64,000 nt of DNA, taken from the NCBI GenBank assembly GCA_964035015.1, contig OZ036005.1:12512468-12576467 (forward strand), written 5' to 3'. This stretch comes from Corallium rubrum (lineage: Eukaryota > Cnidaria > Anthozoa > Scleralcyonacea > Coralliidae). A model generated the notes under the pieces. It worked only from the letters and a program-made list of their open reading frames with translations. It was not told where the DNA came from and did not search any database. Positions 1,299 through 40,199 of the stretch are shown piece by piece. The position numbers and the translations under genes were made by a program. Position 1 is the first letter of the stretch. Each line of letters starts with the position of its first letter.

Positions 1299-1343
1299 TT
1301 AAAGGAGCAGTGTCATCCACTGCGCATCTCTTATGCGCACAGT

Positions 1344-1380
1344 AAACTTGAAAAACTACAGCCTGTAGTTTTTCAAGTTT
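1344..1380. repeat. Perfect 18-bp hairpin in the transposase leader
   Basis: The arm at 1344-1361 is the exact reverse complement of 1363-1380, with one base between them. It lies 12 bases upstream of the proposed start codon at 1392. It could form a very stable RNA hairpin or a subterminal transposase-binding palindrome; neither role is shown by the sequence. Confidence 0.75.
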
Positions 1381-1391
1381 ATCAAACAAAG

Positions 1392-4300
1392 ATGGCGGCA
1401 ATTCAAGGCGATACGCACGGTGGCAGGCGTGATAACTCTGGCCGAAAAAGGAAACATGAACCTTCCAGCTCAGCACAAAGGACGTGGAATAGTCGACATA
1501 AGCGTGTTTATTTGTCATTGACAATATTTGAGTCGTGGAAGGAGGCAAAAGTCGTTGCTGGATATGGAAATTCTAGCGATAATGACTTCGCAGCACACTT
1601 GCTCTCTCTGGAGTATCGTAGAAGGTATGTATTGTTGAAAGTTATACTTTTCGTGTTTCATTCTATTATTTAGCTGCACTTTACTACAAATTTTACGATG
1701 TTTATTTAAGAGCTGAACTAAGAAATAACCGGGTTGAAAATTATGAAATACAGCCAGAAGACTCCGAAAATGCGCACGGGGAAGGAGCAGTTATGGAAGG
1801 CAAGAAATTTGCATGTATTTAACATTTTAGACACGTGTCGAAGACTATATCATACAATGAATAAATTACAATATATTTTTGCTTAGATGTGCAAACCTCT
1901 ACACCATTGAGAGCTAGAGTTACCCTACCTGAAGTGACAGAATCTCCGATAATAGATTTTGAATGTGTGTCAGAAAACAGCGACATTTTAGTAGATCCTG
2001 GCATAGAGTCTGATATACCCCATGAAGAAAGGTATGTTGCGGTTACGAATGTAAACACAGTCACTGTCTATGTATTCAAAGTGTAATTGTGTAAATTATT
2101 TTATGCTTCTTTAATAATTCTCGAACAATTTGTGAATCTGACAGCTACATGTATATGAGATTGGACACTTCTTTGTTCACCGATGATGAGGGAAACAGCA
2201 GTGATGATCTAGGTAGTCTTGCTGAACAGGAAAACAGGTATTGAATATAGAAAATCCTGTTACTTTGCCATATTATATTGATGGTTAATAGTTAATTTTA
2301 TGGAACTTTATTGAGCCTATGTCAATGCAGTTTACTACTTAAAAACATTTTGGTAGTGCATGTTGCTTTTAATAATTGATCACTGTATACAATTTACCTA
2401 TTTTCCAGTCAGCATGACATATCACAGGCCCTGGAGGAGTTGAATGAAGATAAAGAGCTTGAAGGAAACAGCTCAGATGATGATATGTAAGTTTGATGAA
2501 AAAAATGAAGTAGATTAATAAATTGACCAATAGACGGCCGACCAAGTTCCGAAGATGTTATCGTTGATGGCATTTTTTGTTACAAGCTGCCAACAATGCT
2601 AAATAGCCTTCAATAGTGTTTACCTTGAATGTGAGGGTTGTTGGCACCTGTGATTCTGAGTTTTAATGCTCATATTTTTGAGTTTTCTACAGCCACTTTG
2701 CGCACATCGACTCCATTGCGAAATCGAACATCGGTTCCTCCTTCGCTGTTGCCATGCAGCAGTTGCTAAATGCTGATTGGCTAACTTGAGAGTGCTAACC
2801 AATCAAGACGCGTAAAATGCTGTAACCTTGACTGCCCTTTGACAGTCTTAGCAACGGCAAAAGAACACAGAAATGAACATGGCGCTGAGTCACGAAGAGA
2901 TATAGTAGCTTTTTATCGCAGTAATACACAATGGAAAACACTAAAATAAGGTAAGTTAAGTAGATACATAACGTAAGAAGGACGCGATTAATGTTGTTTA
3001 TTGTTTTTTGACAACACGACTGAATGTTGAGTGCAATTATTATAACTTCGATAATGTTCGATTGTTTACGAGTCACGAGTAGAAGATTTGAAGCCTGAAG
3101 TCGCTAGACTTTCTTCCCATAGGCTAGGTACTTTATCAAAGCCTGGCTGTTGATCGTGTGTAGTCGGTTCAAACTATATTGTTTAGAAAACAACAATAAT
3201 TCGCAACGAAGTCGCCACAGCCTGTCATGTTGAACAGTCTCATGCTTTTATACACCTGAAAGGTTATTTATGATGGAATGCTCGCTCTAATACTATCATA
3301 CAAAGGTAAATTAGTAGAGCAGATATAAAGTTATTTATGTTGAAAATGCTGTGTAAGTGTCGTTTGAAGATTGCTCTTCCGAGGCTTGTCTTGTTCCATA
3401 TAAAATGGCACAATGTTTTAATATGTCCAGTTTATATCCAGCTTTGTAGCAGTACGGGCGTATGTTCTTTCTGCACGACCTGTTGCTCCGATGTAGACCA
3501 AATTCACAAGGAACGACGGTGGCGCTGACAAATTGATTTTTTCTGTTCGCTTCTTTTCAGTCTTGGTTTGGTAGTCTTTGTTTAGTACTCCAGTCTTTAT
3601 TTATTATGGCTGACTTTGATGTTAGGTGAAGCTGGGCCAATATAATGATAGAGTTCTGAGAGGTTTTGAGTCAACATTTCTTGCTAACCATTTCTTGTTA
3701 GTTCTTGATAGAGATATTTAAGTTCTGTATTAACATGATGGTGCTCCAAGTTGGCAGTTCAGTTAAGTTCCCAATTTTCCAGATCACAGTTCTGTGTTGG
3801 TCATACAGGAGGTTTTCTTTTTTCAGAGACCATCCACTGTGTGCGATGCTTGATGTATATAATAATGTTGTGTTTTATTTTCAATGGTGAATTGGATTGA
3901 AATATATTGTCTGTTGAGGTTTGTAAGAAGTTTCCAGTTTTTTTAGACCACGTATTGAATGTAATGTACATATAATATGTAAACAAAACTATTCCACAGA
4001 AGTACCAACCTATAAATGACACTTGAACAGCACTTTTAACATAAATAACTGTATATCTGCTGTGCCAATTATTAGTTAATACCATAACATTAAATTACTT
4101 TTAGACATTCAATCAACAGTCATGCCTTGATAACTATCCTAGTCTACAGGATGAAAGCCCAGTGACAAAATTGCCATGAAAACGTTGAAATCTTTATTTA
4201 CATATCATTTAAGTGAGCATGCTGCTTACAATAATTGCACATGCAAGTACAAGTAATGCATGCTCAGTATAAGCCATGGTATTGGATGATCAATTGTACA

Positions 4301-7300
4301 TGAATTATCTAAAATTTATTTGACTTAATGTCATTTAACATTTGTCTTTCCAGTGCTACTTCGAGAACTCTGCTTCGTCCTTCCTCCGTGGCGCTACTCA
4401 GATCGCTGGGTTCTCCAGCTTGGCAAAACAGACAAACATCATCAGATAACTCAGTGACAGTGTCTGCTTCTTCCTTTCTCCTTTTCAACACAGTTACTGG
4501 ACTGATTGGAGCTATTTCGGTCTTCCTTTCTGACCTCGATTGTCGAATCCATTACTGTTTGAGTTTTTGCTGCATAGTGTGAAAGAACAGTTCGAGAAAC
4601 GAACCCCTGTTTGGGTCGTTTGGAAGAACTCTCTACATGACTAAGCTGAAAACTGTGTTCAGTAGAGCAGTAAAATAGCTTTTGTTTACTTATATGTAAA
4701 TACCTATAAAACACGCAGTGAAAGCTGTGAATATAAATCAAATCAAATCACACAGAGTCATATGTCACGACGGGACACGAACGTAGTTACATTATACAAC
4801 AACTAACACGTTAAAAGATTGTATTAAATAAGTAGAAGAAAGATTTTACAAACTTTCCCGTGTGAATAGTCTTCTCTTTTAAAGTTAAACTTCGGATTTT
4901 GCTTTGTATTTCTTTTCGACAGATTGACTGAACACATGTTTTAATGCGGCTCTTTGTTGTATCCAAGGGGCGTTTCTTTATGCACTTGACACGCGAGCGT
5001 TCATTGGTTGTTTGTTTATCGTTAGCCAATCACGGTTAAGTATCCGCTGCATAGCAACCTCAAGAGAAAGCCTAGCGTGAATGTTTGACAATATTCGAAG
5101 CGCTTGCGATGGCTACGGAAAAACGTTAAATTTAACCTTCAAAGCCGAAACCCAAGGTGCCAACAACCCTAGCGTGTTTGATAAATGTCTATACAATGTA
5201 TCTATGTTTGTTGTTTGTTTGTAACAAAGAATGCCATCAAAGATTTTTTAGAGCGCTTTTTGCGATTGTGGCCGGCCGTCTACAAGTAGACCGCTGTAAA
5301 TAGAGAAATTTTAATCTGTAATTCAAATCTACATGTTACAGAGACCAATGATTGTATACTGTTTTGTTTTATAGTTCTCTAGACTCCACTATTCACCAAA
5401 CTGGTTCCGACCCAGATGATGATGAATTAGAAGATGATGTAGAGTAAGTACTGTTGCTGTACATGGGTTGCTTCTAAAAGGATCTCAAATAGAACATTAA
5501 CCCATTTATATGCTAGACTCTCCCCTTGATGAGTAAAATTGTCTGGCGTTGGACAGAGTAAGAGAATATAGTCGGATGCATTGGGGCGCATTGCCAGTCA
5601 ATGGGTTAACAAGAGGAATTGGCAGATAGGTTTGTTAACCCATTAAGCTGCAACTCCTGCAAGACTCCCCCCTTGACAAGTAAAATTGTCTGGTGTTGGA
5701 CAGAGTAAAAGAGTATAGTCAGACGCATTGGGGCACATTGCTGGTCAATGGGTTAAGACATTATTTATATTATATATAATTAGGATAAGTTGATTTCATT
5801 TTTTGCAGACATAATTTTGCATTTTTATTTTGGTATAGCTTACTAGATTGTGATGGTGTAAATACCATTGAAGATGAGAACCTGATTCAAGAGTCACATG
5901 ATCACAGCATTGCCTACGGACCACACAAGAAACTAAGCAGAGGTGATGATATGTATGACATTAGAGAAGAGTTTGGAATGGTAAAAGAAAGAAAGGTTAT
6001 CTGCTCAATTGAGTTGTTGCTGGAAGTTTTCCGAGCTCGCTGTCAAACACCTGGATGCACAGCCATTCCTGTAGTCCATCATCATGCAATTAGTACAACT
6101 GTGGTTATCACTTCCTTATGCTCATCTGGCCATGAATACAAGTTCTGTTCATCTCACGAGGTTAATGGAATCTATGCCAACAACCTACAAGCAGCTGCAT
6201 CATTAATGTTGTCAGGCAACAATTTTGCTAAAATCAAGAGAATGGCCAATTTCTTTGGACTTCATTTCTTGTCAAAGTCAACTTACTATAGATTGCAGCG
6301 ATTGTATTTAATCCCTGAAATTGATGATTGGTGGTGTTGGATGAGAAAGGAACTGCTTAAAGAATTTGAAGGGCAGGACATTATTCTTGGTGGTGATGGG
6401 CAGTGCGATTCTCCTGGTTTCAATGCAAAAAATCTCTGCTACTTCTTGGTGGAAGTTAATACGGGGTATATAATTGATATTGAAATTTTGGACAAAAGGC
6501 ATGTTGGACTTATCTCCACCAATATGGAGAAAGAAGCGATCAGAAGAGGGCTGGAAAAGGTGACGAAAGAATTGAAAGTTGTGGAATTGGTCACAGATGC
6601 ATCAACATCGGTAAAAGCATTGATGGGTAAGTACCTACTAAGTAAATGTTGTATTAACCCATTAAAGCGCAAGACTCTTCCCTTGACGAGTAAACCTGTC
6701 TGGTGTTAGACAGAGTAAAAAACAAAAGTAGGGCGCATTGCAGCTTAATGGGTTAAGTAACAAGGAATGGACATACAGTACCCAGCAAGGGCGGGGGTTG
6801 TAATAAAAGGTGAAAGTTGCATTTTGGTCACTAGAAAGTGGCTGAAAACTCTTACTGACTCTATATTTACAAAGTTTTCAATTGTTTACATATGGTGCAA
6901 TAGAAAGTGACATTAAAAGTTAAGCTTGCAATAACAAGAATTATTTAATCAATTATAGAAGCTGAATTTCCAGACATTGTGCACAGCCTTGATGTCTGGC
7001 ACAAATCTAAGAGTATAAACAAGTGTCTTGCAAAGGTATGCTATTTACAGAATGATTTTATTTTTATAAGTAATAACGTGGCATTCAGGTCGATTAGTGA
7101 TTAAATGTACCTGAAAGCTGAGGAAGGTTTAGTAAAAGTTCCGAGGGACTTTTACTAAACCTTCCGAGGCTTGAGGGACAATTCATCACTAATTGACCGT
7201 AATGCCATGCTATCACTATTATTACCGAGGAAATGGGAAATACCAGGACGACCTGAAAGATAAAGCATATACTGTATACAAATTCTCGATGTTTTGAGCC

Positions 7301-9165
7301 CTTCTCTATTCAGTCTGGAAATAATAGGTGAGTAATAAATAGTTAAGACTTAAGTGTTTGATCAAGATAAACTTAGATGTTTGGTAATAGATAAACTTAA
7401 GTGTTTGGTCAAGGTTTGGTGGTTTTTGACTCATACATGAAGAAAGCAAAGTTTTTTGCATAAACATGAGGTATGATTAGTTACTACTAATCACACCATG
7501 GTATGATTAGTTTCTAATCGTACCTCATGTTTTAGTAATGAGGTAAATTAGTCATTAATCGCACATCGCAAGACAAAGGATTTTGAGGTAGCTATGATAC
7601 TACAGAAAAAATGTTGATAAATGTTGCAAATTTTTTTATCATGCTAGTTGGGAAAACCAAAAGCAATGCATAAAGTGAAAGATTGGTCAACCCATATTGT
7701 GAGGCACTTTTGGCACTGCTCCAATGTGTGTAGAAAAGATGCAACATCTGACATTGAGGCATTAAAAGTAATGAAGGTACAGAATTTCTTATTTTTTTGT
7801 AACATGACATGTACTGCATTATTACTGAGTCATGAGTTAGAGTTTGGTCAAAAATTACTATACACATTAAATTGTGATGTTGCTACTCTGAGTATGTCCA
7901 ACCGGGCAAGCTAACAAATTAGCTTGACCACGGTGGGAACCGAACCCGCAACCTTTGGTTGTCTAGACCAATGCTCTACCACTATCATCATTAAGCTTAT
8001 GAAGCAGCACCACCATCATTAAGCTTATGAACTTTAGAGATATACAGATATCGAAGGAACTAGATTGAGTTCTGAAATATCATACACTCGAACCAGCTTG
8101 ACCTTGTAGCTCAGTTGGTAGAGCATTGGACTAGACAACCAAAGGTCGCGGGTTCGATTCCCACAGCTAATTTTTCAGCTTGCCCAGATGGACATACTCA
8201 GAGTAGCAACATCACAGTTTCACTTCACCTGAGTACATATGCACCACCATCATTAATACTATACACATATTCTGCCCTGTCACTGGTGTACAAATGACAA
8301 ATGTTCTGCCCGATAATTATTTAGGATAAGTGGCTGGGCTTATTGCATCATGTATGCAATGAGCATGAGTGGTTGGGAGGAAAGTGTGATCATGACATTG
8401 ATGACCATGATGAAAGCTTGCCTTGGTTCGATCGAAGGGACAAGGATTTCCAAGAGCTGCAGAAAATAATATTGAACCCAGAATTACTTAAAAGCTTTCG
8501 ATATTATACAAGGTTCAGGTAAGTTATGGTAACCCATGAATGACCGTCAGTTGCACTTACAGCTAGTCTTGCCAATTAATTTTGGGTAATTGTGACTAGG
8601 AAACTGTGCTTATTCTATTTTTCTCCTTTTATTATATGCAGACACACTGGTATGATTGAATGTGCGAATAGTCTAAGTTTGGTTTACACACCAAAAAGAA
8701 TGCCTCTATGGTAGGTATTCTATTGCAGTGCTACACACTTCTGCAATTGTGACACTGTAACAGACCCTTTATTTCCACATTTTTCAACAATTTACATTGT
8801 GTTTTGATTTTAGCTATAAGGTGTACAAATCCAGGAAACAACTCACATCCATTGATTGGAATTATCACATCAACCTTCCAACAGCAAAAGGAAAGACATC
8901 TGGTCAGGACCTGGTCTCAAGAAAGTACAACCCAAGGACCAGACAATGGGATGTAAAGGTGATGAAGGTTGACAAGGGATATGAATACATACCAATCCTG
9001 ATTGCAAAGATTTTGAAGAGGAGAATGGAGGATGTAGACTGTGTTACACGAAATGTCTCTCTCAATGAAAGTGACCCAGCTATAATTGCCCCAACCATTG
9101 CACACATTGCACCACCCCCTCTGAATGAGATTATAAAAAGAAGGAGCAGGTTTTTAAAGGAATAA
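1392..9165 (+). CDS. DDE-type (RNase H-like) transposase, Kolobok-like, 12 exons
   Basis: Proposed exons: 1392-1624, 1711-1799, 1887-2031, 2145-2237, 2409-2486, 5375-5443, 5839-6626, 6959-7035, 7648-7776, 8325-8518, 8642-8710 and 8814-9165. Together they give 2316 nt, an uninterrupted 771-residue protein, and the phases agree at every junction. All introns are GT-AG except intron 2, which starts GC. The N-terminus is basic and the following ~200 residues are acidic and Ser/Asp-rich. A Cys/His cluster (CQTPGC, then CSSGHEYKFC, about residues 304-340) may bind zinc. The catalytic core shows GGDGQCDSPG (D422), LVTDAS (D489) and HSLDVWHKSK (D510, H513), a pattern I associate with Kolobok-type transposases; the assignment of the catalytic acids is inferred. 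The protein would act in the nucleus on the element's own ends. The start was chosen as the first in-frame ATG after the hairpin; an upstream ATG at 1293 lies outside the element. Confidence 0.8.
2531..5282. mobile_element. Nested 2.75-kb DNA element in transposase intron 5 (CAA duplication)
   Basis: The left end TAGACGGCCG (2531-2540) is matched by CGGCCGTCTA ending at 5282. Subterminal inverted matches also occur, for example GATGGCATTxTTTGTTACAA near 2567-2586 against its complement near 5219-5240, and a GTTGTTGGCACC block near 2638 against 5155-5168. Both ends are flanked by CAA, a 3-bp target duplication. No intact transposase is visible. A short open segment on the minus strand (4309-4491) contains a CLFCQ motif typical of the start of some cnidarian repeat proteins, but it is too short to assign. 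Superfamily unknown; a 3-bp duplication fits PIF/Harbinger or CMC-type elements. Confidence 0.7.
7077..7212. repeat. Foldback (MITE-like) sequence in transposase intron 8
   Basis: The two halves are imperfect inverted copies. They contain GTGGCATTCAGGTC on the left with its counterpart near 7195-7212, and a central near-perfect stem (AGGAAGGTTTAGTAAAAGT against ACTTTTACTAAACCTTCC). A second, smaller palindromic stretch built on ATGATTAGT / ACTAATC words follows at about 7467-7540. No coding content. Confidence 0.6.
7868..7982 (-). mobile_element. tRNA-derived SINE, minus orientation
   Basis: The reverse complement reads as a tRNA-like head, with an A-box-like GTGGTAGAGCATTGG and a B-box GGTTCGGTTCC, followed by a short body ending in GAGTAGCAACATCACA. 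It lies in intron 9 of the transposase and forms an inverted pair with the copy at 8102-8218. Confidence 0.75.
8102..8218 (+). mobile_element. tRNA-derived SINE, plus orientation
   Basis: The head contains TAGCTCAGTTGGTAGAGC (A box) and GGTTCGATTCC (B box). The body matches the inverted copy at 7868-7982, including CATACTCAGAGTAGCAACAT. The spacing between the two boxes and the short tail fit a tRNA-derived SINE rather than a functional tRNA gene, since no well-paired acceptor stem is evident. Confidence 0.78.
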
Positions 9166-9206
9166 CTTGAAAAGGACATAATTTAAATGAGTTTTAACTT
9201 ACTGTA

Positions 9207-9771
9207 ATGCATGAGTCAATATTAACCCCCACTCCCCCCACCCCGGGGAAAGGTGGGGATTTGTTTTTGCCACCACCCAAATACACACCAAAGTCCCCAT
9301 ACCTGGGGAATGATTTCGAAAACAAAACTCAACAAATAGGCCTCTACCTGGGGCCGTCAACCTGATTATAAAAGCAGATAACATAATGTCCTTTAAATAA
9401 ACATACAGAGTACAGACAACTGTACAACACACTATCTACACAAAATTTGAGATATTGTACCATATATAAATAGATATGTAAAAGACACTTTATACTTGAG
9501 AAAATAGAATTTCAAACTGCCAAATGGCCAAAGCAATCCAAAAGGATGAAAATATCTGATGCTTGCTTGTGGCTTCTTTTAAGCTTTGTGTCTGCAGTCT
9601 TTATGGTCAGCAGCCTTACACTATACAAAGCCCCTACCCCCAGGGATCCCCAACGATCAAACTCCTCCAGAGCCTCGGGAACACATTCCCATCAAATCCC
9701 CTGCTATTCCCCCTGCTGTCCCCACCTTTCCCCGGGGTGGGGTGGGTGGGAGTTAATATTGACTCATGCAT
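9207..9771. mobile_element. MITE-like element between the two transposon genes
   Basis: The left end ATGCATGAGTCAATATTAAC and the right end (...AATATTGACTCATGCAT) are inverted repeats that continue into C-rich/G-rich arms (CCCCGGGGAAAGGTGGGG type). The interior has no supported gene. It lies in the gap between the 3' ends of the convergent transposase and P2X7-like genes, so it interrupts neither. Confidence 0.7.
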
Positions 9772-9833
9772 AAAGTGTGATGTAAATAAGGAATACACTT
9801 TTATAATATTTCCAATAATAAAATTACTTAATG

Positions 9834-11158
9834 TTACCTGTATCCCATGTATACTCCAGTGACTGAAGGATAACGTTTTCTGATTTCCAAAACAACACAA
9901 GATGGGCATACTCGCCTATTGCCTTTACCCAAATGCCCATGACGAGCCAGTATAAATTGTCTGTAGGCAGCCTTCCTAAAGGCCCTCGTACTATTATCCT
10001 CTCTGTCATTCCGGATGTCACTGGTACTGCGAATGCACAGTTCTAAAACATCTGGATCGAGACAGATTTTAGCAAACCGAGATGAATTAGTTATGCAAGT
10101 CTTTTGTTTGCAGCATTTATTTTCAATTTCTTGCGGCATTGGCTGGCATTTGCCACATTTGCACCATTCTGGCAACGTTTCACGTGGAGGGACTTGTGTT
10201 GTGTTGACATTTGATTGTGACTCGGTTGCACCACACTGAGCTGTCTGTAATGTCTCAATCTCTGAGGACTCTCCAAACTCGTGCATGTTCTCTTCATCAT
10301 CATCGTCATCTAGATCATCTTGCATAATCAACAGTGTGTCTATATAATCCATGCTTCCTATACCCCTACGTAGACTTCTGATGGCAAGCTTTTTTACCAT
10401 TTTTTCATCAAGTGTCTCGATGAAATTCTAAAAAGATACTCATTGTCAATGACTGTGATGTACAGTACACAAGTGTTTCATATAGGGTACACAAATTAAT
10501 ATCCGGCCGGTCTTGCTATTTTATATTTTTGCAAAGTTGTAATGTGTATAAATATATAAATCCAGAAATAGAACATAAATGTTTATATAGAGTATTTGGG
10601 TATGTAGGCAACATGCATTTACCAATCGTTTTGCAGACCAAAAAATCTGAAAAATATTTGTCCGCGGCATAAGCGTCACTACTGTACCTTAACATCTTTA
10701 TGTTCTTTTTCCCGTTGTTTTTCCTCCGACTCTCGAGGCTCGTGTGACAGACGAAAACCTTGGTTGTTTTTGCCACGTTTTCTGCTAGGCAGATTTCCAT
10801 CGCGGCTTTCGCGTTGTCTTTCTTCGTTCTCCACGATTCCCTACAACGAAACAATATAGCATCGGTTATCTAAACACAATTGAATCAGTATTCAGATAAA
10901 TGTTGAATACTTATACAGAATATGAATAAAACGCACCTTATTTTGACATGGTTTATCACGAGTACCGCACCGACAGTCGGCAGAACACTCTATATTTTTG
11001 CCTTTACAAGGGCAACCTCGCTTCCCATTTTCTTTTCTTTTCATGCTGCACGAACTTTTACACCCGCACTTGACGACCTAATGCAAAGTTATGATATCTG
11101 AAACATGATACATGATACATGCAAATATATGCAAATTTTGACTCACTGTGGAAGACAT
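9834..11158 (-). CDS. P2X7-receptor cytoplasmic-domain-like zinc-binding protein, 4 exons
   Basis: Proposed exons on the minus strand: 11158-11147, 11077-10937, 10840-10688 and 10427-9834. All junctions are phase 0 with GT-AG introns, giving an open frame of 299 residues. Exon 2 is a cysteine-rich segment (KCGCKSSC ... CPCKGKNIEC ... CRCG) resembling CXC/tesmin-type motifs. Exon 3 is charged, rich in Arg/Glu/Lys. Exon 4 has an acidic stretch and then the hallmark region EWCKCGKCQPMP, KCCKQKTCIT, DVLELCIR, STRAFRKAAYRQFI and RRVCPSCVV. This is the Cys-rich zinc-coordinating ('ballast') domain known from the C-terminus of vertebrate P2X7 and from many invertebrate proteins that lack the channel. 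No membrane segment is present, so it is not an ion channel. Its position inside the transposon, reading inward from the right end, suggests a transposon-encoded accessory protein. Its role is unknown. Confidence 0.82.
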
Positions 11159-11494
11159 TGTCGCTTCGTTCGCACTCCTAAACAATGGCGTACTATAGAA
11201 TCCGACAGATTTACGACAGTTTCCGATGAATTTTTGTTATGCGCAGAAAGAGTGCGCAAACGATGACACTGCTCCTTTAATATTAATTACAAATTACGTC
11301 AACAATCAGCATCTCGTCCAATCAGTAAGCTGCGTCCCAATTTGGAACGCTACTACTCAAAAAACAATACTACGCGTGCAGGCTCTCCTTCTCCTCCTCT
11401 CCCCAATCCCCCAAAGGAGAGCCGGCTCGCAGGCTAAGCAATGTTCTATGGATATCATCCTATCATCACTAGAAATATCAGTATAACATGATCT

Positions 11495-12368: not shown

Positions 12369-13110
12369 TCCCCGAGCCGGGCGGAGGGCCGAAGGCCCGG
12401 AGCCCGGTGAGGGTGCTAATCTCGACATGCGTGGAGTCCATTTTACACGCGTGGAGAAAAAGGGAAGGGAGACGTAATCTCGGAAATAGTTTATATATAT
12501 ATATATGTTCGGGACGGTGTCACGCGGTAAGAATTGTTGGACACTGGTGACTAGCGATGCAGAAAACTATAAACTCTCAAGCAAATGAAATAGTATTTTC
12601 CTTTCGTTTATTTAAACGAAACGAAATGGAGCACGAAGAAAAGAAGGATACGAACAACCCGTTTAATATATCTTGAAGAGAAACCAGAGAACTTGAAGAA
12701 ACCAAACGACGTATGGTAAACAAAAACTCGATCTGAATTACAGTGATTCCGTGGTCAAAAGTTAACGGTAGGATTTTGTTTTAAAGTTTTCTCTTAACCT
12801 AAACAACATACTGCTTCACGTTTTCGTGCTTTCCCTTTGCTCGTCCAAACCATAAATCAGCTTAACTAAAGCTAACTTAAAACACTACCTTTATAAGCTT
12901 ATGTAGACGTGATGATTTTATTGGCATTGCAATCACCTTTTGTTATTAAATACTCATGGGCTTTGGCCATTTTTTTGGCTGTATTTCCAAATTTTCGACT
13001 GAAACGTTGTCTGTTTACCGAATTGTTTTTATCCTGGACTCTTTTATAAATGTAATTTTTGAGCTGTTGACATTTAATTCTGCCTTTGCAAAACATATAT
13101 GCAAGGGGAA

Positions 13111-16100
13111 TATTATAAATGATATTGGGCATTTCACTCGATTACACAGCATGTTCTGAGGATTTAGGTTGAAGGAAGATTCGAGTGTAGAATATATACA
13201 TTTTAAAACCAAACCGGGAGCAGTTGCGAAAAATGCAACTACATAGGCCCTCCGGCAGGAATTGAACCCACGACCTTGCGATTCTAGTGCAATGCTCTGA
13301 CCACTGAGCCACGGAGGCCGTTGCCGAGAGCTCGATCGCGAGTTCTGTATATATAATAAGGTGGTAATGCCAGGAGAGAATTGGGTATATTATAAATGAT
13401 ATTGGGCATTTCACTCGATTACACAGCATGTTCTGAGGATTTAGGTTGAAGGAAGATTCGAGTGTAGAATATATACATTTTAAAACCAAACCGGGAGCAG
13501 TTGCGAAAAATGCAACTACACAGGCCCTCCGGCAGGAATTGAACCCACGACCTTGCGATTCTAGTGCAATGCTCTGACCACTGAGCCACGGAGGCCGTTG
13601 CCGAGAGCTCGATCGCGAGTTCTGTATATATAATAAGGTGGTAATGCCAGGAGAGAATTGGGTATATTATAAATGATATTGGGCATTTCACTCGATTACA
13701 CGGCATGTTCTGAGGATTTAGGTTGAAGGAAGATTCGAGTGTAGAATATATACATTTTAAAACCAAACCGGGAGCAGTTGCGAAAAATGCAACTACACAG
13801 GCCCTCCGGCAGGAATTGAACCCACGACCTTGCGATTCTAGTGCAATGCTCTGACCACTGAGCCACGGAGGCCGTTGCCGAGAGCTCGATCGCGAGTTCT
13901 GTATATATAATAAGGTGGTAATGCCAGGAGAGAATTGGGTATATTATAAATGATATTGGGCATTTCACTCGATTACACAGCATGTTCTGAGGATTTAGGT
14001 TGAAGGAAGATTCGAGTGTAGAATATATACATTTTAAAACCAAACCGGGAGCAGTTGCGAAAAATGCAACTACACAGGCCCTCCGGCAGGAATTGAACCC
14101 ACGACCTTGCGATTCTAGTGCAATGCTCTGACCACTGAGCCACGGAGGCCGTTGCCGAGAGCTCGATCGCGAGTTCTGTATATATAATAAGGTGGTAATG
14201 CCAGGAGAGAATTGGGTATATTATAAATGATATTGGGCATTTCACTCGATTACACAGCATGTTCTGAGGATTTAGGTTGAAGGAAGATTCGAGTGTAGAA
14301 TATATACATTTTAAAACCAAACCGGGAGCAGTTGCGAAAAATGCAACTACACAGGCCCTCCGGCAGGAATTGAACCCACGACCTTGCGATTCTAGTGCAA
14401 TGCTCTGACCACTGAGCCACGGAGGCCGTTGCCGAGAGCTCGATCGCGAGTTCTGTATATATAATAAGGTGGTAATGCCAGGAGAGAATTGGGTATATTA
14501 TAAATGATATTGGGCATTTCACTCGATTACACAGCATGTTCTGAGGATTTAGGTTGAAGGAAGATTCGAGTGTAGAATATATACATTTTAAAACCAAACC
14601 GGGAGCAGTTGCGAAAAATGCAACTACACAGGCCCTCCGGCAGGAATTGAACCCACGACCTTGCGATTCTAGTGCAATGCTCTGACCACTGAGCCACGGA
14701 GGCCGTTGCCGAGAGCTCGATCGCGAGTTCTGTATATATAATAAGGTGGTAATGCCAGGAGAGAATTGGGTATATTATAAATGATATTGGGCATTTCACT
14801 CGATTACACAGCATGTTCTGAGGATTTAGGTTGAAGGAAGATTCGAGTGTAGAATATATACATTTTAAAACCAAACCGGGAGCAGTTGCGAAAAATGCAA
14901 CTACACAGGCCCTCCGGCAGGAATTGAACCCACGACCTTGCGATTCTAGTGCAATGCTCTGACCACTGAGCCACGGAGGCCGTTGCCGAGAGCTCGATCG
15001 CGAGTTCTGTATATATAATAAGGTGGTAATGCCAGGAGAGAATTGGGTATATTATAAATGATATTGGGCATTTCACTCGATTACACAGCATGTTCTGAGG
15101 ATTTAGGTTGAAGGAAGATTCGAGTGTAGAATATATACATTTTAAAACCAAACCGGGAGCAGTTGCGAAAAATGCAACTACACAGGCCCTCCGGCAGGAA
15201 TTGAACCCACGACCTTGCGATTCTAGTGCAATGCTCTGACCACTGAGCCACGGAGGCCGTTGCCGAGAGCTCGATCGCGAGTTCTGTATATATAATAAGG
15301 TGGTAATGCCAGGAGAGAATTGGGTATATTATAAATGATATTGGGCATTTCACTCGATTACACAGCATGTTCTGAGGATTTAGGTTGAAGGAAGATTCGA
15401 GTGTAGAATATATACATTTTAAAACCAAACCGGGAGCAGTTGCGAAAAATGCAACTACACAGGCCCTCCGGCAGGAATTGAACCCACGACCTTGCGATTC
15501 TAGTGCAATGCTCTGACCACTGAGCCACGGAGGCCGTTGCCGAGAGCTCGATCGCGAGTTCTGTATATATAATAAGGTGGTAATGCCAGGAGAGAATTGG
15601 GTATATTATAAATGATATTGGGCATTTCACTCGATTACACAGCATGTTCTGAGGATTTAGGTTGAAGGAAGATTCGAGTGTAGAATATATACATTTTAAA
15701 ACCAAACCGGGAGCAGTTGCGAAAAATGCAACTACACAGGCCCTCCGGCAGGAATTGAACCCACGACCTTGCGATTCTAGTGCAATGCTCTGACCACTGA
15801 GCCACGGAGGCCGTTGCCGAGAGCTCGATCGCGAGTTCTGTATATATAATAAGGTGGTAATGCCAGGAGAGAATTGGGTATATTATAAATGATATTGGGC
15901 ATTTCACTCGATTACACAGCATGTTCTGAGGATTTAGGTTGAAGGAAGATTCGAGTGTAGAATATATACATTTTAAAACCAAACCGGGAGCAGTTGCGAA
16001 AAATGCAACTACACAGGCCCTCCGGCAGGAATTGAACCCACGACCTTGCGATTCTAGTGCAATGCTCTGACCACTGAGCCACGGAGGCCGTTGCCGAGAG

Positions 16101-19100
16101 CTCGATCGCGAGTTCTGTATATATAATAAGGTGGTAATGCCAGGAGAGAATTGGGTATATTATAAATGATATTGGGCATTTCACTCGATTACACGGCATG
16201 TTCTGAGGATTTAGGTTGAAGGAAGATTCGAGTGTAGAATATATACATTTTAAAACCAAACCGGGAGCAGTTGCGAAAAATGCAACTACACAGGCCCTCC
16301 GGCAGGAATTGAACCCACGACCTTGCGATTCTAGTGCAATGCTCTGACCACTGAGCCACGGAGGCCGTTGCCGAGAGCTCGATCGCGAGTTCTGTATATA
16401 TAATAAGGTGGTAATGCCAGGAGAGAATTGGGTATATTATAAATGATATTGGGCATTTCACTCGATTACACAGCATGTTCTGAGGATTTAGGTTGAAGGA
16501 AGATTCGAGTGTAGAATATATACATTTTAAAACCAAACCGGGAGCAGTTGCGAAAAATGCAACTACACAGGCCCTCCGGCAGGAATTGAACCCACGACCT
16601 TGCGATTCTAGTGCAATGCTCTGACCACTGAGCCACGGAGGCCGTTGCCGAGAGCTCGATCGCGAGTTCTGTATATATAATAAGGTGGTAATGCCAGGAG
16701 AGAATTGGGTATATTATAAATGATATTGGGCATTTCACTCGATTACACGGCATGTTCTGAGGATTTAGGTTGAAGGAAGATTCGAGTGTAGAATATATAC
16801 ATTTTAAAACCAAACCGGGAGCAGTTGCGAAAAATGCAACTACACAGGCCCTCCGGCAGGAATTGAACCCACGACCTTGCGATTCTAGTGCAATGCTCTG
16901 ACCACTGAGCCACGGAGGCCGTTGCCGAGAGCTCGATCGCGAGTTCTGTATATATAATAAGGTGGTAATGCCAGGAGAGAATTGGGTATATTATAAATGA
17001 TATTGGGCATTTCACTCGATTACACAGCATGTTCTGAGGATTTAGGTTGAAGGAAGATTCGAGTGTAGAATATATACATTTTAAAACCAAACCGGGAGCA
17101 GTTGCGAAAAATGCAACTACACAGGCCCTCCGGCAGGAATTGAACCCACGACCTTGCGATTCTAGTGCAATGCTCTGACCACTGAGCCACGGAGGCCGTT
17201 GCCGAGAGCTCGATCGCGAGTTCTGTATATATAATAAGGTGGTAATGCCAGGAGAGAATTGGGTATATTATAAATGATATTGGGCATTTCACTCGATTAC
17301 ACAGCATGTTCTGAGGATTTAGGTTGAAGGAAGATTCGAGTGTAGAATATATACATTTTAAAACCAAACCGGGAGCAGTTGCGAAAAATGCAACTACACA
17401 GGCCCTCCGGCAGGAATTGAACCCACGACCTTGCGATTCTAGTGCAATGCTCTGACCACTGAGCCACGGAGGCCGTTGCCGAGAGCTCGATCGCGAGTTC
17501 TGTATATATAATAAGGTGGTAATGCCAGGAGAGAATTGGGTATATTATAAATGATATTGGGCATTTCACTCGATTACACAGCATGTTCTGAGGATTTAGG
17601 TTGAAGGAAGATTCGAGTGTAGAATATATACATTTTAAAACCAAACCGGGAGCAGTTGCGAAAAATGCAACTACACAGGCCCTCCGGCAGGAATTGAACC
17701 CACGACCTTGCGATTCTAGTGCAATGCTCTGACCACTGAGCCACGGAGGCCGTTGCCGAGAGCTCGATCGCGAGTTCTGTATATATAATAAGGTGGTAAT
17801 GCCAGGAGAGAATTGGGTATATTATAAATGATATTGGGCATTTCACTCGATTACACAGCATGTTCTGAGGATTTAGGTTGAAGGAAGATTCGAGTGTAGA
17901 ATATATACATTTTAAAACCAAACCGGGAGCAGTTGCGAAAAATGCAACTACACAGGCCCTCCGGCAGGAATTGAACCCACGACCTTGCGATTCTAGTGCA
18001 ATGCTCTGACCACTGAGCCACGGAGGCCGTTGCCGAGAGCTCGATCGCGAGTTCTGAATATATAATAAGGTGGTAATGCCAGGAGAGAATTGGGTATATT
18101 ATAAATGATATTGGGCATTTCACTCGATTACACAGCATGTTCTGAGGATTTAGGTTGAAGGAAGATTCGAGTGTAGAATATATACATTTTAAAACCAAAC
18201 CGGGAGCAGTTGCGAAAAATGCAACTACACAGGCCCTCCGGCAGGAATTGAACCCACGACCTTGCGATTCTAGTGCAATGCTCTGACCACTGAGCCACGG
18301 AGGCCGTTGCCGAGAGCTCGATCGCGAGTTCTGTATATATAATAAGGTGGTAATGCCAGGAGAGAATTGGGTATATTATAAATGATATTGGGCATTTCAC
18401 TCGATTACACAGCATGTTCTGAGGATTTAGGTTGAAGGAAGATTCGAGTGTAGAATATATACATTTTAAAACCAAACCGGGAGCAGTTGCGAAAAATGCA
18501 ACTACACAGGCCCTCCGGCAGGAATTGAACCCACGACCTTGCGATTCTAGTGCAATGCTCTGACCACTGAGCCACGGAGGCCGTTGCCGAGAGCTCGATC
18601 GCGAGTTCTGTATATATAATAAGGTGGTAATGCCAGGAGAGAATTGGGTATATTATAAATGATATTGGGCATTTCACTCGATTACACAGCATGTTCTGAG
18701 GATTTAGGTTGAAGGAAGATTCGAGTGTAGAATATATACATTTTAAAACCAAACCGGGAGCAGTTGCGAAAAATGCAACTACACAGGCCCTCCGGCAGGA
18801 ATTGAACCCACGACCTTGCGATTCTAGTGCAATGCTCTGACCACTGAGCCACGGAGGCCGTTGCCGAGAGCTCGATCGCGAGTTCTGTATATATAATAAG
18901 GTGGTAATGCCAGGAGAGAATTGGGTATATTATAAATGATATTGGGCATTTCACTCGATTACACAGCATGTTCTGAGGATTTAGGTTGAAGGAAGATTCG
19001 AGTGTAGAATATATACATTTTAAAACCAAACCGGGAGCAGTTGCGAAAAATGCAACTACACAGGCCCTCCGGCAGGAATTGAACCCACGACCTTGCGATT

Positions 19101-21175
19101 CTAGTGCAATGCTCTGACCACTGAGCCACGGAGGCCGTTGCCGAGAGCTCGATCGCGAGTTCTGTATATATAATAAGGTGGTAATGCCAGGAGAGAATTG
19201 GGTATATTATAAATGATATTGGGCATTTCACTCGATTACACAGCATGTTCTGAGGATTTAGGTTGAAGGAAGATTCGAGTGTAGAATATATACATTTTAA
19301 AACCAAACCGGGAGCAGTTGCGAAAAATGCAACTACACAGGCCCTCCGGCAGGAATTGAACCCACGACCTTGCGATTCTAGTGCAATGCTCTGACCACTG
19401 AGCCACGGAGGCCGTTGCCGAGAGCTCGATCGCGAGTTCTGTATATATAATAAGGTGGTAATGCCAGGAGAGAATTGGGTATATTATAAATGATATTGGG
19501 CATTTCACTCGATTACACGGCATGTTCTGAGGATTTAGGTTGAAGGAAGATTCGAGTGTAGAATATATACATTTTAAAACCAAACCGGGAGCAGTTGCGA
19601 AAAATGCAACTACACAGGCCCTCCGGCAGGAATTGAACCCACGACCTTGCGATTCTAGTGCAATGCTCTGACCACTGAGCCACGGAGGCCGTTGCCGAGA
19701 GCTCGATCGCGAGTTCTGTATATATAATAAGGTGGTAATGCCAGGAGAGAATTGGGTATATTATAAATGATATTGGGCATTTCACTCGATTACACAGCAT
19801 GTTCTGAGGATTTAGGTTGAAGGAAGATTCGAGTGTAGAATATATACATTTTAAAACCAAACCGGGAGCAGTTGCGAAAAATGCAACTACACAGGCCCTC
19901 CGGCAGGAATTGAACCCACGACCTTGCGATTCTAGTGCAATGCTCTGACCACTGAGCCACGGAGGCCGTTGCCGAGAGCTCGATCGCGAGTTCTGAATAT
20001 ATAATAAGGTGGTAATGCCAGGAGAGAATTGGGTATATTATAAATGATATTGGGCATTTCACTCGATTACACAGCATGTTCTGAGGATTTAGGTTGAAGG
20101 AAGATTCGAGTGTAGAATATATACATTTTAAAACCAAACCGGGAGCAGTTGCGAAAAATGCAACTACACAGGCCCTCCGGCAGGAATTGAACCCACGACC
20201 TTGCGATTCTAGTGCAATGCTCTGACCACTGAGCCACGGAGGCCGTTGCCGAGAGCTCGATCGCGAGTTCTGTATATATAATAAGGTGGTAATGCCAGGA
20301 GAGAATTGGGTATATTATAAATGATATTGGGCATTTCACTCGATTACACGGCATGTTCTGAGGATTTAGGTTGAAGGAAGATTCGAGTGTAGAATATATA
20401 CATTTTAAAACCAAACCGGGAGCAGTTGCGAAAAATGCAACTACACAGGCCCTCCGGCAGGAATTGAACCCACGACCTTGCGATTCTAGTGCAATGCTCT
20501 GACCACTGAGCCACGGAGGCCGTTGCCGAGAGCTCGATCGCGAGTTCTGTATATATAATAAGGTGGTAATGCCAGGAGAGAATTGGGTATATTATAAATG
20601 ATATTGGGCATTTCACTCGATTACACAGCATGTTCTGAGGATTTAGGTTGAAGGAAGATTCGAGTGTAGAATATATACATTTTAAAACCAAACCGGGAGC
20701 AGTTGCGAAAAATGCAACTACACAGGCCCTCCGGCAGGAATTGAACCCACGACCTTGCGATTCTAGTGCAATGCTCTGACCACTGAGCCACGGAGGCCGT
20801 TGCCGAGAGCTCGATCGCGAGTTCTGAATATATAATAAGGTGGTAATGCCAGGAGAGAATTGGGTATATTATAAATGATATTGGGCATTTCACTCGATTA
20901 CACAGCATGTTCTGAGGATTTAGGTTGAAGGAAGATTCGAGTGTAGAATATATACATTTTAAAACCAAACCGGGAGCAGTTGCGAAAAATGCAACTACAC
21001 AGGCCCTCCGGCAGGAATTGAACCCACGACCTTGCGATTCTAGTGCAATGCTCTGACCACTGAGCCACGGAGGCCGTTGCCGAGAGCTCGATCGCGAGTT
21101 CTGTATATATAATGAGGTGGTAATGCCAGGAGAGAATTGGGTATATTATAAATGATATTGGGCATTTCACTCGAT
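13111..21175. repeat. Satellite array: about 29 tandem copies of a 277-bp unit
   Basis: The same word recurs at exact 277-bp spacing from 13142 to about 21170. There are about 29 full units plus a partial unit of ~32-35 bp; the first and last stretches share the words ATTATAAATGATATTGGGC and CACTCGAT. Units are almost identical. Visible variants are CACGGCATG for CACAGCATG (near 13701, 16194, 16748, 19518 and 20349), CTGAATATA for CTGTATATA (near 18056, 19996 and 20827), and CATAGG for CACAGG in unit 1. A GGGGAA string occurs on both sides (13105-13110 and 21176-21181). The 115-codon open frames that repeat on the minus strand are a by-product of the repeat, not genes. Such homogeneity indicates recent amplification. 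Confidence 0.97.
13246..13319 (-). repeat. tRNA-like sequence in the first satellite unit (repeated every 277 bp)
   Basis: On the minus strand the 74-base segment starts GGCCTCCG, contains TGGCTCAGTGGTCAGAGC (A box) and GGTTCAATTCC (B box), and ends CGGAGGGCC. The ends can pair as an acceptor-like stem, and TTGC/GCAA can form an anticodon-like stem. Each unit therefore carries an internal RNA polymerase III-type promoter. It is probably a SINE head rather than a working tRNA gene; no 3' CCA logic or standard variable arm was established. The same segment recurs about 29 times. Confidence 0.75.
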
Positions 21176-33500: not shown

Positions 33501-33618
33501 TAATAAATGAACAGCAGGACAGAGTATTTGTGGTACTTGAAGTATTAATCTTAGGGATCGCGGGCTCTGAAACTGGCAATGGATGTCAGGGTAATTCAAC
33601 TGTCAAGGAAGTAATACC

Positions 33619-34602
33619 ATGACTGGAAAATCTGATAAAGCTAAGGGAAATCCTATTTGGAATGAAAAGTCCTATAGCTCTTCTGTCTGCATCAAGACAT
33701 TTGGTTATTTATCGGGTTTAAGACGTCATATGTCAACACATTCCGAAGAGAAACCATTTAAGTGTGATATCTGTGACAAGACATTTTCTTACTCAAGTCA
33801 CTTACTAGTTCATAAAAGAACACATACTGGAGAGAAACCATTCAAATGTGATGTCTGTGAGAAGACATTTTCTCAGTCATGTAACTTACTAGTTCATAAA
33901 AGAACACACACTAGAGAGAAACCATTCAAATGTGATATCTGTGACAAGTTGTTTTCTCAGTTAGGTACCTTGGTATTTCATAAAAGAACACATACTGGAG
34001 AGAAACCATTCAAATGTGATATCTGTGCGAAGACATTTTCTAGGTCACATCACCTGGTAGTTCATAAAAGAACACATGCTGGAGAGAAACCATTCAAATG
34101 TGATATCTGTGAGAAGACATTTTCTATGTCACATCACCTGGTAGTTCATAAAAGAACACATACTGGAGAGAAACCATTCAAATGTGATATCTGTGAGAAG
34201 ACATTTTCTCACTCAAGTAACTTACTAGTTCATAAAAGAACACATACTGGAGAGAAACCATTCAAATGTGATGTCTGTGACAAGACATTTTTCCATTCGG
34301 GAAACTTAGTATATCACAAAAGAACACATACTGGAGAGAAGCCTTTTAAATGTGATGTTTGTGACAAGACATTTATACAATCAAGTAACTTACTTTCACA
34401 CCAAAAAGCTCATACAAAAGAAAAAACCTTCAAATGTGGTTTCTGCAATGGAACATTTGGTAGTGAAATATTTGATAGACATTTGTTAATCCATGAACTG
34501 GAAGCTACTGAACCAACTGGGATGGAATACATATGTTTACAATGTGATGCCAGATTTGACTTAGCCCGTAATTTGGTAAGTCATGTGAACAAAGGTCATT
34601 AA
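33619..34602 (+). CDS. C2H2 zinc-finger protein, 11 fingers, intact copy
   Basis: A single-exon frame of 327 residues. After a ~25-residue basic start comes a degenerate finger in which the first Cys is Ser (YSSSVCIKTF; the S2 copy has YSCSVC), so it probably cannot bind zinc. Eight classical fingers follow (FKCDICxKTFSxSxxLLVHKRTH type) joined by TGEKPF linkers; one linker reads TREKPF. Two more divergent fingers close the protein (FKCGFCNGTF...H-x3-H and YICLQCDARF...H-x4-H). It is presumably a nuclear DNA-binding protein; targets are unknown and there is no KRAB, BTB or SCAN domain. The start is the ATG of MTGKSDK, which aligns with SVTGKSDK in the S2 copy. It could be a lineage-expanded zinc-finger gene. 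Confidence 0.88.
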   Translation: MTGKSDKAKGNPIWNEKSYSSSVCIKTFGYLSGLRRHMSTHSEEKPFKCDICDKTFSYSSHLLVHKRTHTGEKPFKCDVCEKTFSQSCNLLVHKRTHTREKPFKCDICDKLFSQLGTLVFHKRTHTGEKPFKCDICAKTFSRSHHLVVHKRTHAGEKPFKCDICEKTFSMSHHLVVHKRTHTGEKPFKCDICEKTFSHSSNLLVHKRTHTGEKPFKCDVCDKTFFHSGNLVYHKRTHTGEKPFKCDVCDKTFIQSSNLLSHQKAHTKEKTFKCGFCNGTFGSEIFDRHLLIHELEATEPTGMEYICLQCDARFDLARNLVSHVNKGH

Positions 34603-36659: not shown

Positions 36660-36809
36660 AGCCGGTTTTCCACTAGGCGACTTTTTTCGTGCGAAGCGAC
36701 TTTTTCTTTTGTCTCATGAGCTCTGAGCTGGAACTAATCAGAAATCTATTGAATCCGAACAAAAGAAAGTCGCTTCGCGCGAAAAAAGTCGCCTAGTGGA
36801 AAACCAGCT
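36660..36809. mobile_element. 150-bp MITE inserted in the Harbinger 2 terminal repeat
   Basis: AGCCGGTTTTCCACTAGGCG on the left and its complement ending ...GTGGAAAACCAGCT on the right give arms of about 30 bp with GCGAAGCGAC words. The flanks read TTAA on both sides (strictly TAA if the repeat ends AGC...GCT). Removing it restores AGGGACCTTAAGATTTGGCG, the complement of the right end. Older relatives with the same 'gtcgcttcgcgc' words lie at about 32010-32157 and 50545-50697. Confidence 0.8.
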
Positions 36810-36950
36810 TAAGATTTGGCGACGCGCCCGTCTAGGACGCGTCGATTTACGCGGTCGGACTAAGGAGAGTCGCGTCGTCGCACGTGTGCAAAAGTTGTTA
36901 AGATTTTCAACGACGCGGACGCCGATTCCTATATTCAATGATCTTTAAAA

Positions 36951-38186
36951 ATGTCTTCTTTCAAAAAAGCTAGAAATGCTCTTCATCTGGCCTACGATGA
37001 TTCATTGATAGACGACGAAGAGTTCGTGGTATTATACAATGCTTCTCGCTCGAAGAATCCAGAGTTACCGTATCAAGATTACCCAGCTTTTGATCTAGAA
37101 CAAATGCACGAAGCTGAATGTTTTTTAGATTTTCGGTTTAGAAAAAAACAAATTCCAATTCTTGCTCAAGCATTGGATTTACCGGAAAAGTTCACTTGCC
37201 AACAAGGGACGGTTTGTGAAGCTACAGAGGCTGTGTGTATGGTTCTTCGCCGATTTGCCTACCCTTGTAGGTACAGCGATTTAATTCCTCAGTTTGGCAG
37301 GCCAATTGCTGAGATGAGCATGATAACAAACACCGTTGTCGACTTCATCTACGAAAGGCATGGGGAAAAAATAACAAGATGGAATCACGAGCTTCTTCGC
37401 CCAGAATCACTGCGACTATATGCCGAAGCAGTAAAGAGAAAAGGGGCAGCTTTGAATAAATGTTTCGGTTTTATTGATGGGACAGTTAGACAAATCTGTC
37501 GTCCAGATCAGATGCAAAGGGCTGTTTACAACGGTCATAAGAGGGTACATGCCTTAAAGTTTCAATCTGTTACCATACCCAATGGAATCATTGCCAACAT
37601 GTTTGGGCCTTTAGGTATGTTTATTTTACTTTTTCTATTTTTCCTTAGCTAAAACTGCTTAACTGCATGAATAAAATGCACCATTTGGGGGCTGTAAAAT
37701 GCCATTGTATAATATATTAAATATAATACATAATAATGTCATAGTAATTTATACTTGTTATTGATATGTTTTTAGAGGGAAAAAGACATGATGCAGCAAT
37801 GCTAGTAGACTCTGGGCTATTGAACGATTTGGAGCAGTATGCCTTTTCCGATGGTCAGCCCATGTGTTTTGTATGGTGACCCAGCCTACCCTTTGCGGGT
37901 ACACCTGCAAGCACCATACAGGAACCGGCAGCTTACACCAGCAATGACAGCATTCAACAAGTCCATGAGCGCTGTCCGCGTCTCAGTTGAATGGATCTTT
38001 GGTGACATAGTAAACTATTTTAAATTCCTTGACTTTAAAAAAAACTTGAAAATTAGTCTAAGTAGTGTTGGGAAGATGTATATAGTGGCTGCCCTCTTAA
38101 GAAATGCTCTTACTTGTCTACAGTCCAACTCTACGTCTACCTTTTTTGAATTAGAACCTCCTGCTCTTGGAAATTACTTTTCTTAA
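36951..38186 (+). pseudogene. PIF/Harbinger transposase, frameshifted
   Basis: Exon 1 36951-37614 and exon 2 37776-38186 with the same phase-1 intron position as copy 1. FIDGT, YGDPAYPL and SVEWIFGD carry the catalytic acids. Compared with copy 1 (PLCIYGDP), the sequence around 37862-37872 has one extra T in a T run (tgttttgtatgg), which shifts the frame just before the second catalytic Asp. The rest is well preserved, so the lesion may be recent or could be a sequencing or assembly error in a homopolymer. Confidence 0.82.
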
Positions 38187-38586
38187 ACATTAGCACCACA
38201 TTTATCTGTCTTAGCCAAATAATTTTATTGTGTAAACTGTTACTGTAATCGTTTATTTATTTATTGACATACTACCACACTTTATTCACACACTACCACA
38301 CTTTACTCATACACTACCAAATAAATAAACACAACCAAATAATTATTGAATAATAGACAAGTCATTTGTTATGGGCTGAATCAGGTAATGGAAATTTGAA
38401 TGTTATATTTTAGTATAACATCGGTAATTAAATAACACCAATGAAAGTATATTATTGTATACTTTACACTGGATACAACCCATAAAAAATGTCTGGTCTA
38501 TTAAAATGTAAATAGTTTTCTATGTAAATAAAATTGAAATAATTTGTTTAAAAGGTTTTTAAAAATGCAAACTATGAGCATTGTTC

Positions 38587-39345
38587 TTATTTTTCAAGCA
38601 ATTTGCTCAAAAGAGCCATGAATGCCTGTCCTTGTTGTTGCTGCTGTTGCATCATCACCATTTGGTTTGCCTGCATTTGTTGGCTTTGCTGTTTTTGCAT
38701 CTCGATCATCGTTGCAAGCATTTGGTTCTGTTGATTTGCAAAACGTTCGTTGTTCTCCTTTTCCATTTCTATTCGCTGTTTTTCTACCTCCATTCGTTCA
38801 CTCTCTAATCTGTTACTCTCAGTTTTCAACTTGTTGTCTCTTTCTCCCTTCACCTTCAAATATTCCAACGCAGCATCCCCTCCCTTCCTAACTTTCCTCT
38901 TATTCCCACCTTGTTCGCTTGTGTTCCTTTTCTTGGTTTCTGCCAAATTTTCCATGGTCCTTTTCTTCATTTCCTCCGCTGCCTCCTTATCTGACTCCAC
39001 CCGTTTCTTTTCCTCTGCTCCAACTTCTGCAGCTATGGTCTCTGATGCCTCTTCTCTTGCATTTATTTCCTCCAAGAGGACATCCAGTTCGGTCTGCGCT
39101 GGTGAGATGCCAATCGCATTCCCCTCTTGCCTATTCTTCTTCTTAAATTGTTGAAGCAATTTCCTCAGTCGGTCCCTCACAGATCGTTGATCAACCCGAA
39201 AGCACGGTTACTCCATATTTTCTAGTTTTTTGGCAATGGCTTCCCAAATTTTGCCTCTCTCCATAGACTTTTTTTTTGTCTCGAAAAGTCTCGAGACCAA
39301 AACTTCTTTGGCAAATTCTATGTCATGTTGTAATGACCATTTCAT
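38587..39345 (-). pseudogene. Harbinger Myb/SANT-like accessory gene with one nonsense codon
   Basis: Reading from MKWSLQHDIEF at 39345, the Myb/SANT-like domain (ERGKIWEAIAKKLENM ... RSVRDRLRKLLQQFKKKNRQE) is interrupted by an in-frame TAA at about 39208-39210. The frame is otherwise open to 38587, through a charged coiled coil and a Gln/Met-rich C-terminus (MQKQQSQQMQANQM), parallel to the intact copy at 25174-25899. Confidence 0.8.
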
Positions 39346-40199
39346 AACAAAGCAAGTTCTAAAGAAAAGCAAATTAAATGTGTAAATGACTATGTACAGC
39401 ATGAGCAAACAAGTGTTTATTATTTTTGTATTATAAACTACATTTGGATGATTAAATTCAGCCATAACATAAGACCATAGACCCCTAATACAGATAGAGT
39501 TAAACAGGTAATCATTGACTATTTATCTTTGACCAAGAAACAAACAAACAACGACGTCAATAAGACTACTAATTTAGCATTTAATTAGGGAAAGGCACAA
39601 TGAAAGCTTCAGCCGTAATAGGTTGTTAAATTTCACAACAATTAATTGAGATAAACGCAACTTACGGTGATTTACTTCCAGCATTCAAAGACGAAGGCGA
39701 TTGCTTGGCAGACATTTTTGTTGGTCTTGTTGAGTAAACTAATAAAAACAGTAAAATTGAACGGTTTTAAGGACATTCAATCGAAGAAATAAGTCGACAA
39801 CAAGAGTTCACCAAATTCAGAACATATAAGTTTAAAAAAGCGTGATAAAACTCACCTTTCGAAGCGAGAGATGTGGACAACTTCACAGTGATCTACGACG
39901 ACGCTAAAAGAACCTAAAACGCAGCGTCGCAGATCGACGATGAGATTCAAGGACGCGCGCGCATGCGTATTTCCACTAAGATCACTTCCGGCCGCGTCCC
40001 AGATGAGCGCGTCGCCAAATCTTAAGGTCCCTAATAACAAACGGAGCCGAAACCTAGACTCGGCCACCACAGTAGCCCGAGTAATAATAGACCTTTTCAA
40101 GGTTTATTCCGCCATCTTGTAAGGGGTGCAAAAACATTGGGGCGAGCGCGCGGCCTCGCAGAATATGCATATGGAGGACACGGTTGATTAGCTACTGTA

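Follow-up and report, generated by a model that had tools for sequence, protein, structure and literature searches.

The element and its two genes

We describe here a TTAA-bounded element at positions 1299-11280 of a 64,000-nucleotide stretch of the Corallium rubrum genome (contig OZ036005.1; this whole stretch is called the window below). With both TTAA copies included it measures 9,982 bp, and it encloses two predicted genes in convergent order, one encoding a DDE transposase and the other a protein that shares its ballast domain with the P2X7 receptor. In our opinion the element belongs to the Kol0 kind of Kolobok DNA transposons, is apparently intact and autonomous, and has KolX as its second gene; we would put the probability of this reading at about 0.9. 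It is based on the TTAA and the inverted ends, on the Kolobok signature residues, and on the convergent gene with the domain shared with P2X7. The coordinates are collected in Table 1.

The original prediction that the element has perfect 15-bp inverted ends with TTAA on both sides proved exact. The 19-mer consisting of TTAA and AGGAGCAGTGTCATC is found at 1299-1317 on the plus strand and at 11262-11280 on the minus strand with 0 mismatches. These are the only two matches in the window even when up to 3 mismatches are allowed, while shuffled sequences gave a mean of 0.04 matches and none of 100 reached two. Beyond the perfect 15 bp the inverted repeat is imperfect (77% over 48 nt). The element begins and ends with AGGAGC...GCTCCT (AG...CT), that is, with 5'-RR and YY-3'. 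Near each end, at the same distances from it, lie two TGCGCA boxes; the motif occurs nine times in the window, as the four end boxes, two more copies within the element and three elsewhere.

That such ends arose by chance is rejected by the shuffle test, but the rejection is tempered by four further TTAA-bounded perfect 15-bp inverted pairs, which together with the pair of this element make five in the window against 0 in 30 first-order Markov sequences. Since other repeats also yield TTAA-bounded pairs, the ends alone are no proof of a transposon; the pair is not unique in the window, and it is the ends together with the two genes between them that carry the case.

Both genes could be rebuilt at the sizes originally predicted (771 and 299 residues, from 12 and 4 exons), and their frames are open. 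We picked splice sites by eye and by the open frame, and the splice models should be read as predictions. Of the 11 introns of the transposase gene, intron 2 has GC-AG borders and the 10 others have GT-AG. The expected motifs follow each other in order over exons 7, 8 and 11: GGDG (D422), VTDAS (D489), DVWH (510-513), a Cys/His-rich stretch (547-590) and MIEC (E638). The catalytic residues were assigned by eye, without alignment to any Kolobok protein. The Cys/His-rich stretch, a candidate zinc finger, sits between DVWH and E638. Exon 7 gave two matches in the PDB, which we take to be chance (E 0.18 and 0.29). The open reading frame (ORF) that holds this exon matched two stretches in a collection of viral contigs, neither of which was confirmed as a relative.

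For the minus-strand gene every intron of the 4-exon model is GT-AG. With the start codon and the acceptors fixed, a search of nearby GT and GC donors left three open chains (297, 299 and 304 residues). The differences lie where exon 2, exon 3 or both end; all three chains share an identical exon 4, which carries the P2X7-like domain. The original prediction had likened this protein to the P2X7 intracellular domain, and a profile search agrees: residues 160-299 match Pfam PF20478 (P2RX7_C, P2X purinoreceptor 7 intracellular domain) with E 1.4e-26 and a score of 94.1 bits (cut-off 23.5), and no other family exceeds its cut-off in the 299-residue protein. Exon 4 taken alone gives E 3.6e-28. In a phmmer search of the PDB (E <=10), four of the five distinct sequences matched are P2X7, the best with E 3.1e-14; the remaining one is a ribosomal protein (E 1.1).

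The alignment with the best P2X7 chain covers 120 residues, of which 40 (33%) are identical. The seven cysteines of the three published motifs (477, 479, 482, 498, 499, 506 and 572, in P2X7 numbering) are all present, and so are R546, A549, Y550, R578 and P582; H547 is replaced by Lys, R574 by Val and K583 by Ser. Unlike vertebrate P2X7, the protein has no channel: no channel family was matched, and a crude hydrophobic-window count found no membrane-like stretch. The possibility that this is a P2X receptor gene is thus rejected, as the channel domain with its two membrane helices was not found. A pattern made for exon 4 matched seven stretches in the viral contig collection, none of them confirmed as a relative. 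An alignment of exon 4 with two P2X7 tails did no better, with 0 of 24 stretches confirmed among viral contigs and 0 of 18 among prokaryotic genome contigs. Being viral and prokaryotic, these collections say nothing about abundance in animals.

Table 1. Window positions of the element, its genes and associated features
Feature	Position	Strand	Remarks
Left TTAA target-site duplication	1299..1302		read from the sequence
Left terminal inverted repeat	1303..1317	+	15 bp, perfect, AGGAGCAGTGTCATC; imperfect match on to ~1346
Left TGCGCA boxes (two)	1321-1326, 1334-1339		bases 19-24 and 32-37 from left end
Kolobok-type DDE transposase gene	1392..9165	+	12 exons, 771 residues, predicted
Transposase exons 1-6	1392-1624, 1711-1799, 1887-2031, 2145-2237, 2409-2486, 5375-5443	+
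Transposase exons 7-12	5839-6626, 6959-7035, 7648-7776, 8325-8518, 8642-8710, 8814-9165	+
Nested insertion	2531..5282		2,752 bp, intron 5; imperfect terminal inverted repeats of ~330 bp, start TAGACGGCCG
Direct repeats	5511-5756, 6668-6766		introns 6 and 7
Palindrome	7069-7217		intron 8
Foldback	7869-8220		intron 9
Foldback between the convergent genes	9207-9771		53-nt arms, 94%
KolX-type gene	9834..11158	-	299 residues, predicted; 4 exons: 11147-11158, 10937-11077, 10688-10840, 9834-10427
KolX exon 4	9834..10427	-	P2X7 ballast (P2RX7_C) domain
KolX exon 2	10937..11077	-	nine-cysteine module, possibly CXC-like in spacing
Right TGCGCA boxes (two)	11240-11245, 11253-11258		same distances from right end
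Right terminal inverted repeat	11262..11276	-	15 bp, perfect
Right TTAA target-site duplication	11277..11280		read from the sequence
Other TTAA-bounded 15-bp pairs (four)	5635-6756, 36809-40025, 49541-49688, 56089-56404		first lies within the element's introns

Probable placement among Kolobok elements

According to Kojima and Bao (2022, PMC9587614), Kolobok transposons are characterized by TTAA duplications, RR/YY termini, DDD/E catalytic residues and a C/DxxH motif between the second D and the E, and almost all lineages have a zinc finger between C/DxxH and E. The element described here has the 4-bp TTAA duplication, the RR/YY termini and DDD/E with DxxH, the last assigned by eye. The Kol0 families that were reported first code for a transposase and for a second protein, KolX, which resembles the P2X7 ballast; the published range of Kol0 includes vertebrates, annelids, cnidarians and sponges (PMC9587614). 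The Kol0 feature seen here is likewise a second gene with similarity to the P2X7 ballast and with its seven cysteines. Judged by description, not by alignment, the element is like the Kol0 lineage, represented by Kolobok-1_XT, in its TTAA duplication, in its RR/YY termini, in the order D-D-DxxH-E, in the Cys/His-rich stretch before the E and in its second protein with the ballast domain.

KolobokP, KolobokE, KolobokD and KolobokH also combine a Kolobok core with a lineage-specific accessory protein, but theirs are nucleases or a helicase, unlike KolX (PMC9587614). KolobokP has long terminal direct repeats, whereas here none of 18 direct-repeat families joins both ends. A CCHC finger downstream of the first D is reported for KolobokP, E, D and 5 and for a few solitary families, in a description that does not say whether it precedes the second D (PMC9587614). 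Between D422 and D489 of our transposase there are only C425, C436 and H457, so no CCHC finger fits there.

Thus the original prediction of a TTAA transposon that encodes both a DDE transposase and a protein with the P2X7-type zinc domain is supported by the motifs, by PF20478 and by the P2X7 matches in the PDB. That prediction named no family for the element. The pairing is real, but it was already described in 2022 (PMC9587614). Of the two terms that had been applied to the second gene, "accessory protein" agrees with the published Kol0 lineage, where KolX stands beside the transposase (PMC9587614). The other, "cargo", is probably the wrong word, because an accessory gene common to a lineage is part of the element. 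Nor is a mobile-element source for the P2X7 ballast a new proposal: Kojima and Bao conclude that P2X7 is the product of a fusion between a P2X4-like gene and the KolX of a Kol0 Kolobok (PMC9587614).

Several points weigh against the Kol0 reading. The assignment to Kol0 follows from motifs assigned by eye and from the presence of KolX, mainly from the latter, and not from a tree; it should be taken as a probable one. The transposase has no Pfam match above cut-off, the best being DDE_Tnp_ISL3 with 17 bits against 23. In the second protein PF20478 is covered only at profile positions 52-192 of 192, the first 51 being unmatched. At C573 the protein has Val instead of the C or S of the published consensus, and in the second cysteine cluster the spacing from CC to C is two residues shorter than in P2X7. 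A second copy of the element was not seen: within the 64-kb window its ends are found at this locus only.

Alternative explanations

The alternative that survives best is that we are looking at a decayed or inactive Kolobok copy, the open frames being in part a product of splice-site choice. The way in which the splice sites were picked, and the three chains that fit the minus-strand gene, speak for this, and so do the intron that needs a GC donor and the 2.75-kb insertion in intron 5; moreover, the gene models are drawn from the genomic sequence of one copy. On the contrary, the 15-bp ends are perfect, the signature residues stand in the right order across three transposase exons, and no stop interrupts the ballast exon before the last position of the domain profile (192 of 192). 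We consider decay unlikely.

It could also be argued that a host gene with a ballast domain was picked up by this one Kolobok copy, or landed within it. Ballast-domain proteins without a channel do occur in diverse animals (PMC7016195), and our evidence comes from one copy. These channel-free (ZCD) and Nanor-like proteins (PTHR36981) are indeed similar to the KolX described here, with a C-terminal ballast and conserved Zn-binding cysteines. Rump et al. (PMC7016195) report that beyond deuterostomes only R546 and R578 of the guanosine diphosphate (GDP) contacts are kept, and KolX likewise keeps just these two of the five. In PMC7016195 such proteins are described without mention of transposons, whereas the gene described here is enclosed by transposon ends; a link between channel-free ballast proteins and Kolobok has already been drawn by Kojima and Bao (PMC9587614). 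Against a chance capture stands the fact that Kol0, as published, is defined by just this pairing (PMC9587614). The convergent placement tight inside the ends, with the start codon of KolX 118 bp from the last base of the element, also looks organised. A capture of this kind therefore seems to us very improbable.

The reading as a TTAA element of the piggyBac type that carries a KolX-like passenger is largely refuted by the RR/YY termini, by DxxH and by the cysteine pattern. Most of the seven cysteines are reportedly missing from such piggyBac proteins (PMC9587614), whereas all are present here, and no piggyBac transposase family of Pfam was matched up to E 10.

Repeats within the element and other features of the window

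The recognised repeats and insertions of the presumed Kol0 element sit in introns, 5' of a start codon or between the genes, and both frames stay open. The largest of them, the nested insertion of intron 5, is flanked by CAA on both sides, a possible 3-bp duplication. It wholly contains 11 ORFs of at least 60 residues, and the four of these that were scanned against Pfam gave no match. A perfect 19-bp inverted repeat (palindrome) with a 1-nt spacer occupies 1343-1381 and ends 10 bp upstream of the start codon of the transposase. The arms of the intron 9 foldback contain, by eye, a stretch resembling a transfer RNA (tRNA), while ARAGORN called no tRNA there.

Outside the element, the most extensive feature is a large tRNA gene array at 13106-21175, with about 29 near-identical tandem units of 277 bp and 29 calls of tRNA-Ser (AGA) on the minus strand. 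One of the other TTAA-bounded pairs, at 36809-40025, encloses two ORFs, one matching DDE_Tnp_4 below cut-off and one, on the minus strand, rich in Gln; it resembles a Harbinger-type element. In the region 40474-43376, an ORF with DDE_Tnp_4 and HTH_Tnp_4 (40474-41628, plus strand) lies near a YqaJ-domain ORF (42687-43376, minus strand), a pairing which we take to resemble transposons of the ISL2EU type. Two closely similar ORFs with C2H2 zinc-finger arrays are located at 33595-34602 and 51144-52019, Pfam having been run on the first only. An ORF at 63034-63615 matches QRICH1 above cut-off and DUF3504 below it, and ORFs resembling G-protein-coupled receptors are present as well. Together with the introns and the C2H2 arrays, these ORFs by themselves point to an animal host.

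Implications

How might the two proteins of the Kol0-type element work together? By analogy with established DDE transposon biology, the transposase would bind the ends, perhaps via the symmetric TGCGCA boxes, excise the element and insert it at TTAA by cut-and-paste. KolX, in turn, would be a soluble, zinc-stabilised nuclear partner. In the 299-residue model it has a nine-cysteine module at residues 8-48, the spacing of which we assume to be CXC-like (tesmin/TSO1/MSL2-type), the ranges having been set after seeing the sequence. No CXC-type Pfam family matched the module, nor did any PDB entry up to E 10. In a shuffle test the spacing was reached in 0 of 100000 cases, but we give this no weight, as the pattern had been fitted to the same sequence. 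We found no mention of the nine-cysteine module or of the TGCGCA boxes in the main text of Kojima and Bao (PMC9587614).

The N-terminal module may conceivably bind DNA, and the ballast domain may mediate protein contacts, helping with assembly at the ends or with regulation; both suggestions are weak. The only local hints that KolX could be such an end-binding or regulatory partner are the symmetric boxes and the nine-cysteine module, and they point weakly. A more specific version would be that KolX combines a DNA-binding CXC-like zinc cluster with the ballast, recognises the TGCGCA boxes and helps to pair the ends. On this view the ballast would originally have been the half of an end-binding factor that makes protein contacts, and its fusion to a P2X channel would have come later. 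We regard this as a long shot.

The element adds a new example of the Kol0 type, while the general claim on the origin of the P2X7 ballast is already in print. What it does show independently, in one raw window, is the very pairing that lies behind the published transposon origin of this domain. Apparently intact copies, with perfect ends and with both predicted frames open, are material for testing what role the ballast domain had before it was joined to a channel.

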